Positions 15,666-63,612 of a stretch of 64,000 nucleotides of DNA are shown here, piece by piece. The DNA is from Sphingomonas oligophenolica (GTDB lineage Bacteria > Pseudomonadota > Alphaproteobacteria > Sphingomonadales > Sphingomonadaceae), in contig NZ_RCZK01000003.1 of assembly GCF_006438955.1 (NCBI RefSeq), positions 1 to 64,000 of the forward strand. Reading direction: 5' to 3'. Position numbers and translations under genes: made by a program. How positions within the stretch are numbered: position 1 is the first letter of the stretch; each line of letters begins with the position of its first letter. The notes under the pieces are model-generated. The model was not told where the DNA came from. It ran no database searches and worked only from the letters and a program-made list of their open reading frames with translations.

Positions 15666-15666
15666 T

Positions 15667-15763
15667 CCCCATCCCGCTTGCGGGAGGGGCTAGGGGAGGG
15701 CCTGTCCTCCTGATTTCTCTCTCGACAAGCCCTCCCCCGACCCCTCCCGCAAGCGGGAGGGGA
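15667..15763. repeat. Intergenic inverted repeat between gcvH and gcvPA
   Basis: A long imperfect inverted repeat fills the gap between gcvH and gcvPA. The left arm (about 15667-15706) contains ATCCCGCTTGCGGGAGGGGC, and the right arm (about 15724-15762) its complement around CCCTCCCGCAAGCGGGAGGG. Each arm is itself a small palindrome (CCCGC TTGCGGG). This is a REP/RUP-like non-coding repeat of the kind scattered in sphingomonad genomes. It ends 10 bp before the gcvPA start and would form a strong hairpin in the operon mRNA. Confidence 0.8.
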
Positions 15764-15773
15764 GGAGCCAATC

Positions 15774-17135
15774 ATGCGCTACCTGCCTCTTACCGGCCAC
15801 GACCGTGTCGACATGCTCGCGGTGATCGGCGCATCGTCGATCGACGACCTGTTCGTCGACGTGCCCGACGTCGCCCGCCTCGATGGCCCGATCCACGACC
15901 TGCCGATGCACGCCAGCGAAATGGCGGTCGAACGCCATATGTCGGCCTTGGCGCGCAAGAACCTGACCGCGGGGGATGCACCGTTTTTCCTCGGCTGCGG
16001 CGCGTACAAGCATCACGTTCCCGCCAGCGTCGATCATTTGATCCAGCGCGGTGAGTTCCTGACCGCCTACACACCCTACCAGCCCGAGATCGCGCAGGGC
16101 ACGCTCCAGATGCTGTTCGAATTCCAGACCCAGGTCGCCCGTCTGCTCGGGACCGATGTCGCCAACGCGTCGATGTATGATGGCTCGACCGCGTGCTGGG
16201 AAGCGATCGGGATGGCGCGGCGGATCACGCGCCGCGGCAAGGCGATCCTGTCGGCGGGGCTCCACCCGCATTATGTCTCGGTCGCCAGGACGATGGCCAA
16301 ATATACCGGCGACGTGCTCGACACCGCGGCCCCGCGGCTCACCGCGGACACCGATTTCGAGGAGCGTCTGATCGCGAAGATCGACGATGATACCAGCTGC
16401 GTCGTCGTGCAGTATCCCGACATCCTCGGCCGGATTGCCGACCTGAAGCCGCTCGCCGACGCCTGCCACGCCAAAAAGGCGCTGTTGATCGCGGTCGTCA
16501 CCGAACCCGTCGCGCTCGGCGCGATCACATCGCCCGGCGAGATGGACGCCGACATCGTCGTCGGCGAAGGCCAGTCGATCGGCGTCGGGCTTCAGTTCGG
16601 CGGACCGTATGTCGGCCTGTTCGGCTGCAAGGAAAAATACGTCCGTCAGATGCCCGGGCGGCTGTGCGGCGAGACCGTCGACGCCGACGGCCGCCGTGGT
16701 TTCGTGCTGACGCTTTCGACCCGCGAACAGCATATCCGCCGTGAAAAGGCGACGAGCAATATCTGCACCAACAGCGGCCTGTGCGCGCTGGCATTCTCGG
16801 TCCACATGACCTTGCTTGGCGAAGCGGGGTTGCGGAGGCTCGCGGCGATCAACCACGCAGGCGCATGCCGCGCTGCTGACCGTCTCGCGACAATTCCTGG
16901 CGTCCGCCTCGTCAACGACAGCTTCTTCAACGAATTCACGCTCGACCTCGGCCAGGAAGCGCGCCCGATCGTCCGCACGCTCGCCGACCGCGGGATCCTC
17001 GCGGGGGTATCACTCGGGCGGCTCTATCCGTCCGAAGGCGCGCTCGCGAACGGGCTGGTCGTCGCGGTTACCGAGACCACGAGCGAGGCGGATGTCGAAA
17101 CCCTCGCCGTCGCGCTCGAGGAGGCACTGGCATGA
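15774..17135 (+). CDS. gcvPA: Glycine dehydrogenase (decarboxylating) subunit 1
   Basis: A 453-residue alpha subunit of the split P protein, which decarboxylates glycine. Landmarks are [19 protein letters not shown] at the start, [53 protein letters not shown] and the later [21 protein letters not shown]. The catalytic PLP lysine is in subunit 2, as normal for the two-chain form. The ribosome-binding site GGAGGGGAGGAG is supplied by the end of the upstream inverted repeat. The stop overlaps a small ORF that leads to gcvPB. Confidence 0.96.
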
Positions 17136-17245
17136 GCTTCATCCATTCTACCACCGTTCGTGCTGAGCTTGTCGAAGCACGCTTGGCGCCAACGCCCTTC
17201 GACACGCTCAGGGCGAACGGTAGCTTTTCGGGAGCCCTTCGATGA
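17132..17245 (+). CDS. Small repeat-derived ORF bridging gcvPA and gcvPB
   Basis: A 37-codon frame begins with an ATG that overlaps the gcvPA stop (ATGA at 17132-17135) and ends with a TGA that overlaps the gcvPB ATG (ATGA at 17242-17245). Most of it is a translated REP-like repeat ([20 protein letters not shown] is typical of such repeats). The peptide is unlikely to have a function of its own. Its translation could couple gcvPA to gcvPB across the inserted repeat. Whether it is translated is not known. Confidence 0.4.
17153..17221. repeat. REP-like inverted repeat (ACCGTTCG family), copy 1
   Basis: The arms are ACCGTTCGTGCTGAGCTTGT and the complementary segment ending CTCAGGGCGAACGGT. The core GAGCTTGTCGAAG / CTTCGACACGCTC is the widely scattered GTTCGCCCTGAGCTTGTCGAAGGG-type repeat of sphingomonads. 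A second copy lies at 63510-63577. Here it sits inside the gcv operon between gcvPA and gcvPB. Confidence 0.88.
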
Positions 17246-18804
17246 CCATCAACCAGTCCGGCTGGCGCCCCACCGCCCCCGCGAGCGGCGCCGCCGCCGC
17301 GCCGACGTTTACGGGTAACAAGGCGCTCATGCTCGAAGAGCCGCTGATTTTCGAGATCGGCGATGCCCACACCACCGGTGTCGATTTCGCCGAGGGCGAT
17401 GTCGCGGGCTCGCGGCTCGGCGATCTGACGCGCAAAACCCCGATCGGCCTCCCCGGCCTGTCGGAGCCAGAGACGGTGCGCCATTACACCCGACTCAGCC
17501 GCCAGAACTACGCGATCGACCTCGGCCTGTTCCCGCTCGGCAGCTGCACGATGAAGCACAACCCGCGGCTCAACGAGAAGATGGCGCGGCTGCCAGGGTT
17601 TGCCGATGTCCACCCGCTTCAGCCGACCGACACCGTCCAGGGCGCGCTCGAGGTGATCCACCAGCTCGCGCATTGGCTGGTCACGCTGACCGGCATGGCC
17701 TCGGTCGCGATGAGCCCGAAGGCGGGCGCGCATGGCGAACTGTGCGGCATCCTCGCGATCAAGGCGGCGCTCGCCAAGCGCGGCGATACTGACCGCAAGG
17801 TCATCCTCGTCCCCGAATCGGCGCACGGCACCAATCCCGCCACCGCCGCCTTCGCGGGCTTCAGCGTCGAGGATATCCCGGCGACGGCGGAGGGCCGCGT
17901 CGATACCGCGGCGCTCACCGCACGGCTCGGCCCCGATGTCGCGGGGGTGATGATCACCAACCCCAACACCTGCGGGCTGTTCGAACGCGACCTCAAGGCG
18001 ATCAGCGACGCGGTCCACGCCGCGGGCGGCTATGTCTATTGCGACGGCGCGAACTTCAACGCGATCGTGGGGCGCGTCCGGCCCGGCGATCTCGGCATCG
18101 ATGCGATGCACATCAACCTCCACAAAACCTTCTCGACCCCGCACGGCGGCGGCGGGCCGGGCTCGGGGCCGGTGGTGTTCTCCGACGCGCTGACCCCGTT
18201 CGCGCCGCTCCCCTTCGTCGAAAAGCAGGGCGACCATTTCGCGCTGGTCGAGGAAGAAACCGCGGGCGATCACCATGCGTCGAGCTTCGGGCGCATGGTC
18301 GCGTTCCACGGGCAAATGGGGATGTTTACGCGAGCCCTCACCTACATGCTCAGCCACGGCGCCGACGGACTGCGCCAAGTCGCCGAGGACGCGGTGCTTA
18401 ACGCCAATTACATCCTCCGCAGTCTCAACGACACGCTCGACGCGCCATTCGGCGGCAGCGGCCCGTGCATGCACGAGGCGCTGTTCAGCGACGATGGCCT
18501 CGCCGACGGTTTCTCGACGATTGATATCGCCAAGGGGCTGATCGACGAAGGCTATCACCCGATGACGATGTACTTCCCGCTCGTCGTTCACGGAGCCATG
18601 CTGGTCGAGCCGACCGAAACCGAATCGAAGGCCGCGCTCGACCAGTTCATCGGTGCGCTGCGTTCGGTCGCCGAGCGCGCCAAGGCGGGCGATGCCAGCC
18701 TCAAGACCGCACCGCACTTCGCGCCGCGCAGCCGCCTCGATGAGACGCTCGCGGCAAGAAAGCCGGTGCTGGTCTGGAAGGAACCCGGGCTGGCGGTAAC
18801 CTAG
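17242..18804 (+). CDS. gcvPB: Glycine dehydrogenase (decarboxylating) subunit 2
   Basis: The 520-residue beta subunit carries the PLP-binding lysine in MHINLHKTFSTPHGGGGPG. Other conserved segments are FPLGSCTMKHNPRLNEKM, SPKAGAHGELCGILAI, ESAHGTNPATAAFAGF and TNPNTCGLFERD. With GcvPA it releases CO2 from glycine and loads the aminomethyl group onto GcvH. The ATG at 17242 lacks a strong ribosome-binding site (weak GGGAG at about 17230) and overlaps the stop of the small ORF before it, so translational coupling is likely. Confidence 0.96.
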   Translation: MTINQSGWRPTAPASGAAAAPTFTGNKALMLEEPLIFEIGDAHTTGVDFAEGDVAGSRLGDLTRKTPIGLPGLSEPETVRHYTRLSRQNYAIDLGLFPLGSCTMKHNPRLNEKMARLPGFADVHPLQPTDTVQGALEVIHQLAHWLVTLTGMASVAMSPKAGAHGELCGILAIKAALAKRGDTDRKVILVPESAHGTNPATAAFAGFSVEDIPATAEGRVDTAALTARLGPDVAGVMITNPNTCGLFERDLKAISDAVHAAGGYVYCDGANFNAIVGRVRPGDLGIDAMHINLHKTFSTPHGGGGPGSGPVVFSDALTPFAPLPFVEKQGDHFALVEEETAGDHHASSFGRMVAFHGQMGMFTRALTYMLSHGADGLRQVAEDAVLNANYILRSLNDTLDAPFGGSGPCMHEALFSDDGLADGFSTIDIAKGLIDEGYHPMTMYFPLVVHGAMLVEPTETESKAALDQFIGALRSVAERAKAGDASLKTAPHFAPRSRLDETLAARKPVLVWKEPGLAVT

Positions 18805-63488: not shown

Positions 63489-63612
63489 AGCGCGATGACT
63501 TCACATAAACCCGTTCGTGCAGAGCTTGTCGAAGCATGGTGAGTCTCACGGCCCTTCGACAAGCTCAGGGCGAACGGTTCAGATCTGATCGATCTAATGT
63601 CATCGCGCTCTA
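63486..63612. repeat. Nested inverted repeat between hisN and the AsmA-like gene, with REP copy 2
   Basis: An outer 14-bp pair, TAGAGCGCGATGAC (63486-63499) and GTCATCGCGCTCTA (63599-63612), encloses an inner REP-like repeat (63510-63577, CCCGTTCGTGCAGAGCTTGT ... CTCAGGGCGAACGG) of the same family as the one at 17153-17221. It lies between two convergent genes, and the hisN stop TAG is the first base triplet of the outer arm. It probably acts as a bidirectional terminator. Confidence 0.8.

Follow-up and report, generated by a model that had tools for sequence, protein, structure and literature searches.

How has an imperfect palindromic repeat come to be kept between gcvPA and gcvPB of Sphingomonas oligophenolica, genes for two subunits of one enzyme? 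In the window, by which we mean the whole 64,000-nucleotide stretch of DNA that was analysed, both genes lie on the forward strand: gcvPA (glycine dehydrogenase subunit 1; positions 15774–17135; NCBIfam NF001696, E = 2.1e−179) ends with a TGA stop codon at 17133–17135, and gcvPB (glycine dehydrogenase subunit 2; 17242–18804; NCBIfam NF003346, E = 1e−206) begins 106 nt further on, the distance being due to the insert. The list of open reading frames (ORFs) contained a forward-strand ORF of 37 codons (17132–17245) that crosses this insert. Its start overlaps the gcvPA stop in one ATGA (17132–17135) and its stop overlaps the gcvPB start in another (17242–17245), and the coordinates of this bridging ORF in the original prediction proved exact. 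The stop-to-start spacing is −4 both from gcvPA to the small ORF and from the small ORF to gcvPB, and both steps lie within the range of about −8 to +10 nt used to recognize termination–reinitiation. The encoded peptide had no NCBIfam match at E 0.001. Inside gcvPA, a Shine–Dalgarno sequence, GAGGAGG (17118–17124, forward strand; duplex energy −11.8 kcal/mol), occupies the position that serves gcvPB at direct junctions and here precedes the small ORF, and gcvPB is preceded by a weaker Shine–Dalgarno-like GGGAG (17230–17234, forward strand; −6.6 kcal/mol).

The repeat itself (17154–17220, forward strand, 67 nt) runs from CCGTTCG to CGAACGG and belongs to a family with at least 40 copies genome-wide (40 scored out of 107 candidates); a second copy of the same family lies within the window at 63511–63578. 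The junction (positions 17120–17260) folded at −62.4 kcal/mol, against a mean of −42.4 for shuffled sequences (z = −5.2). The description of the repeat as REP-like holds for its palindromic shape and for its dispersal over at least 40 places; it does not extend to the transposase, because the Y1 (RAYT) family PF01797 had no match in the own genome, compared with matches in 5 of 14 control genomes. The acting transposase could be encoded elsewhere. Nor was the REP tag, GTAG or CGTC at the foot of a palindrome of 20–40 bp, recovered, since the palindrome here is 67 nt long and begins with CCGTTCG; the letters GTAG straddle the right end of the window copy, whereas the 39 further matches mostly stop at query base 71–73, so that the tag is incomplete in those. 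No tandem repeat was found at 17132–17245. REP and BIME elements of the GTAG and CGTC classes are dispersed palindromes, often between co-directional genes and sometimes within genes (PMC3733652, in excerpt). The window repeat is likewise a dispersed palindrome between co-directional genes, but it differs from them in its length of 67 nt, its CCGTTCG/CGAACGG ends, and an own genome without a Y1 transposase match. The word “sphingo” is absent from the text of PMC3733652.

The gcvPA–gcvPB junction was compared across relatives, as the original prediction had proposed; the matches retrieved as relatives were sphingomonads. The genus set consisted of 295 genomes, and the junction was determined in 285 of them (59 by sequence in a first set, 221 by coordinates, and 5 further by sequence), that is, in all but G007, G035, G066, G251, G276, G278, G286, G288, G289, and G290. 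For the coordinate set, 222 genomes were searched, one of which (G066) gave no match, and distances were taken manually from coordinate listings. The two genes met directly at 250 of the 285 junctions, 64 of which were seen as sequence, and the remaining 35 held inserts of 61–369 nt. The wider family was sampled through named genomes, a set that shares some strains with the genus set; of the 79 junctions determined there, 77 were direct or within 12 nt (1 of 80 loci had no junction). These counts indicate that the ATGA overlap of gcvPA and gcvPB is the common state and that the inserts are additions.

A frame running from the gcvPA stop through the insert and ending near the gcvPB start was present in 31 of the 35 genus inserts. 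All ten inserts of the first set bridged in this way, with ATG or GTG lying over the gcvPA stop and the frame ending −5 to +3 nt from the gcvPB start. In the second set, 21 of 25 bridged, including one (L092) that ended at +9; the accepted end range of −6 to +9 nt was widened to +9 after this insert had been seen, and the count without it is 30 of 35. Both inserts in the named genomes, from a Sphingobium MAG (L150) and a Proteobacteria MAG (L190), also bridged, bringing the total to 33 of 37. The four non-bridging inserts (L096, L102, L103, and L111) follow gcvPA stops of the form TAG, CTGA, CTGA, and CTAA, respectively, and in none of them does ATG, GTG, or TTG overlap the gcvPA stop; CTG, a rare start, is found there in two. 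The set thereby contains an internal control: where ATG or GTG overlapped the gcvPA stop, 31 of 31 inserts bridged, and where neither did, 0 of 4. Thirteen of the bridging inserts, counted from the listed junctions, end at a gcvPB start of ATGG or ATGT. By our own count, 17 of the 19 inserts ending at an ATGA start have a length of 1 modulo 3; of the two others, L042 bridges all the same, but L096 does not. These 17 inserts (61–160 nt) derive from unlike repeats.

The 35 inserts are not independent samples, because they fall into 12 clusters by loose sequence similarity; 10 of these clusters were wholly bridging, against 3.1 expected by shuffling. When the presence of an insert was mapped onto a gene tree (99 rows, built by a quick method, with 24 open forks), the label changed 20 times, by gain or by loss, and 13 of these changes were forced by the starred branches for the direct group. 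Comparison of insertion sites supported the proposal, with bridging in most inserts over repeated changes of state. By eye, inserts L018 and L107 were alike although located in distant branches of the tree, as were L029, L097, L106, and L116, with direct-overlap rows between them. Such similar inserts in distant rows could mean transfer of the junction, precise excision, or repeated insertion.

Some features of the inserted sequences were observed separately. Among the long inserts (304–369 nt), those of L034, L044, and L095 encode peptide stretches in common, such as LQxLEKxxF...LNFLNIRFLQSS, and that of L092 has DNA like that of these three but in another frame. No Rfam match to a structured RNA was obtained in ten loci (L001, L013, L016, L034, L039, L092, L095, L099, L112, and L113), which take in the long inserts of L034, L092, and L095. 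The gcvPB gene of some relatives contains other palindromic repeats near codon 53 that are in frame and do not break it; such repeats, at about codons 50–100, were present in L051, L052, L053, L057, L058, L059, L060, and L027, and encode peptides such as SPSPRRGEGRGEG...PHPTLSPEGRGL. The gcv operon tolerates repeats in this second manner, too. The palindromic elements of Rickettsia occur inside protein genes, where they are tolerated because the reading frames stay open. The sphingomonad repeats resemble them as palindromes tolerated through open frames, but the window repeat differs in making a separate bridging ORF between genes.

The gap between gcvH and gcvPA, in the same operon, served as a control junction. 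The two genes show no ATGA overlap in the window; as judged by eye, palindromic sequences of another kind are frequent in this gap. The sample comprised 72 determined junctions from the named wider-family genomes and the window, the main gcvPA–gcvPB count being drawn from the genus set. None of the 28 gaps of 60–300 nt bridged; NTG was present at the gcvH stop in 10 of them, none of which bridged, and in 2 of the 28 a frame was open to the place but lacked a start codon. The limit of 60–300 nt was set after the data had been seen: the unrestricted count over gaps of at least 60 nt gave 8 of 46 as “bridging”, all 8 in gaps of 433–782 nt, where we read the long frames as probable genes between gcvH and gcvPA. 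In the window, this gap (15666–15773) contains a different palindromic repeat, whose arms contain CCCGCTTGCGGGAGGGG and CCCGCAAGCGGGAGGGG and whose end supplies the strong GGAGG Shine–Dalgarno sequence of gcvPA (−11.2 kcal/mol).

Another own-genome copy of the repeat lies between nuoL and nuoM, genes named from NCBIfam matches, and contains a frame of 40 codons that runs from GTGA to ATGA (L078). For this junction, 75 genomes were searched, 71 of which matched; distances were taken by hand, and 20 junctions were fetched. All ten inserts of at least 34 nt, the own genome's copy included, bridged, one of them (L218) only if NuoM starts at an ATG 6 nt upstream of the TTG first taken. Shuffles that kept the length were expected to bridge in 5.6 of 10 cases, and 9 of the 10 inserts have a length of 1 modulo 3; length thus carries much of the nuoL–nuoM signal. 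Two pairs of these inserts, counted without a tree, look related (L216 with L217, and L219 with L220). The overlap is not universal at this junction, since among the 11 fetched junctions without a long insert, the spacing was −4 in two, −1 in two, and +4 to +16 in seven. Hardly any Shine–Dalgarno sequence precedes the small ORF in 9 of the 10 inserts (−3.7 to +0.5 kcal/mol; L218 is not among them), which suggests that ribosomes enter it by reinitiation.

We also surveyed 30 fetched copies of the repeat in the own genome, 11 of which were placed by a simple ORF finder between close co-directional ORFs; inspection by eye had excluded L073 and L087 for their wider gaps and L088 for a repeat that lies within an ORF. 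ATG or GTG was present at the upstream stop in three of the 11 copies, and all three have a bridging frame: those at gcvPA–gcvPB, at nuoL–nuoM, and between the genes for 3-mercaptopyruvate sulfurtransferase and cystathionine beta-lyase, where a 32-codon frame started by ATGA ends −10 from the next ATG (L071). Two further copies, with TTGA at the upstream stop, do not bridge. Three of the other six (L080, L084, and L085) contain frames whose start lies at another place close to the stop and whose end is close to a possible start, indicating that bridging-like frames arise also without an overlap.

The strength of the Shine–Dalgarno sequences was then compared among junction types. At the small-ORF start, the duplex energy had a median of −10.8 kcal/mol in the 31 bridging inserts and of −3.6 at the same site in the four non-bridging ones. 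For gcvPB, the median was −11.6 at the 64 direct junctions and, after an insert, −5.9 in bridging cases and −6.45 in the four exceptions. The ribosome-binding site of gcvPB in the window had been called weak, which is correct relative to the small-ORF start and to the direct junctions, although GGGAG is still there. As the four exceptions have no clearly stronger gcvPB site, there is no visible compensation for the loss of bridging. Furthermore, gcvPB keeps a modest Shine–Dalgarno sequence, supplied in 13 of the 37 inserts by a near copy of the segment preceding the first ATGA, so that direct initiation on gcvPB is possible.

Taken from these sequence patterns, the probable explanation is that the small ORF acts as a relay, linking gcvPA to gcvPB across the repeat by two-step reinitiation, and that the insert was kept for it. 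Published work on such overlaps leads us to expect translational coupling of gcvPA to gcvPB at the direct ATGA, where a ribosome ending gcvPA would restart at once on gcvPB. A palindromic repeat would then have arrived at the overlap and parted the genes by 106 nt. In termination–reinitiation reporters in Escherichia coli and Haloferax, a spacing of about 20 nt almost abolished reinitiation (PMC10666635, in excerpt), and a hairpin insert of 106 nt should therefore break the link. What would have favored its retention is the former gcvPB start: together with the strong Shine–Dalgarno sequence preceding it, this codon now begins a frame that extends through the repeat as far as a second ATGA, located at gcvPB. 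After finishing gcvPA, a ribosome would reinitiate at the relay ORF, unfold the hairpin, and reinitiate once more at gcvPB, and the −4 spacing at both ends would mend the link in two steps. Selection would act on three features of the frame, namely that it begins at the gcvPA stop, is unbroken, and ends at the gcvPB start, with the peptide probably no more than a by-product. From the pattern and its recurrence, we infer that the ORF is translated and that it affects GcvPB. The proposal that the repeat was accepted here because its ORF links the two genes is well supported as a rule of selection, at this junction and at nuoL–nuoM (31 of 35 and 10 of 10, against 0 of 28 at gcvH–gcvPA).

The main rival is that the ORF merely holds ribosomes across the repeat and thereby prevents Rho- or hairpin-linked termination, gcvPB initiating on its own Shine–Dalgarno sequence. 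The site that gcvPB retains after an insert (median −5.9; window −6.6) and the strong folding of the junction agree with this explanation, and a frame in register stops by itself wherever gcvPB starts with ATGA, so that the place of the stop adds little in those cases. Protection from termination, however, needs no stop at the gcvPB start, and yet 31 of the 35 frames stop there, 13 of them at ATGG or ATGT starts; moreover, nothing of the kind is seen in the 28 gcvH–gcvPA gaps of 60–300 nt of the same operon. We regard this explanation as unlikely.

The bridging frame might also be a mechanical by-product, arising without selection when an element inserts at NTGA with duplication of its target, so that ATGA...ATGA frames follow. 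In 13 of the 37 inserts, the sequence before gcvPB matches that before the first ATGA at 10–13 of 16 nt, and in L104, L106, L109, and L116, the sequence before gcvPB fits the variant of its own genome over at least the last 11 nt. This looks like a target duplication that includes the Shine–Dalgarno sequence and ATGA. In the window copy, 9 of 14 nt after the ATGA are in common (p = 0.002 by shuffling, for one of 74 comparisons), and here, less surely, a duplication may have taken in the first gcvPB codons. Duplication, however, sets neither the frame nor its openness. When 29 other repeat copies of the own genome (the window copy being excluded) were inserted in silico between two ATGA words, in both orientations and with varied flanks, only 15% bridged, and of the insertions in the right frame, 32% stayed open to the ATGA. 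The 17 inserts whose length is 1 modulo 3 are of dissimilar repeat origin, and the 13 inserts ending at ATGG or ATGT bridge as well, which makes an origin by duplication without selection quite improbable.

Chance open frames of no consequence in a GC-rich genome are a very improbable account of the set. Taken alone, the window copy would fit this account, because 58% of its length-keeping shuffles bridge; the single case is therefore weak evidence, and the set of 35 is strong. Across that set, dinucleotide shuffles keeping the insert length were expected to bridge in 9.0 of 35 cases, against the 31 observed. The other two frames ended in the same range in only 2 and 8 of the 35 inserts, and the bridging frame was open past −6 in 32 inserts, compared with 19 and 12 inserts for the remaining two. 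As a complete explanation, chance was ruled out by these shuffles and control frames, by the in-silico insertions, and by the gcvH–gcvPA control, the result of 10 of 10 at nuoL–nuoM also standing against it. Finally, that the small ORF encodes a peptide with a function of its own is hardly credible: the frame is open in 31 of 35 inserts, but these come from unlike repeats and encode peptides of 22–122 aa that are unlike one another, and the window peptide matches no NCBIfam family.

Mycobacterial interspersed repetitive units (MIRUs), reportedly described by Supply et al. in 1997, are the closest precedent for a relay ORF of this kind; the way of working appears to be alike, and membership of the MIRUs is not claimed. 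A 2025 review describes MIRUs as short and apparently mobile elements that integrate at start codons; the ORF that they contain is coupled to the next gene at −4, which is thought to soften the effect of the insertion (PMC12548453, in excerpt). Like them, the window insert occupies an NTGA coupling site with co-directional genes on either side, and its ORF overlaps the neighboring stop and start at its two ends. MIRUs form direct tandem units of 53–77 bp (PMC4213456, in excerpt), whereas, compared by description, the sphingomonad elements are several unlike palindromes without a tandem array at the junction. The sphingomonad rule also differs in having been traced through 20 gains or losses of an insert, 13 of them forced, and in appearing again at nuoL–nuoM. 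In known termination–reinitiation systems, as far as the excerpted source goes, overlapping gene pairs often encode subunits of one complex, and the points of likeness are an ATGA shared by the genes for the subunits of a heteromeric enzyme and the requirement for very short spacing (PMC10666635); the difference is that here, two successive ATGA overlaps flank a relay ORF. The enterobacterial RU elements are small mobile repeats carrying ORFs, but the opening of the abstract does not mention bridging from ATGA to ATGA (PMC2759123). A search of the open-licence literature returned no report of bridging ORFs in sphingomonad repeats.

We tentatively suggest, as a wider reading that may or may not prove correct, that sphingomonads harbor a guild of unrelated palindromic mobile repeats that settle at ATGA-coupled junctions, that insertion often copies the Shine–Dalgarno–ATGA segment, that only insertions forming a relay ORF survive, and that coupled operons are habitats for such repeats genome-wide. 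If this were true, dependence on coupling could be read from those junctions that hold repeats only when bridged. The inserts observed here amount to a natural experiment, many times repeated, on whether start–stop overlaps matter: where the overlap was split, a relay ORF was nearly always kept, and where the start had been lost, the bridging frame was lost too. The importance of translational coupling can in this way be tested for each gene pair from genomes alone, and a class of tiny “hypothetical” ORFs would be explained as relays rather than as protein genes.
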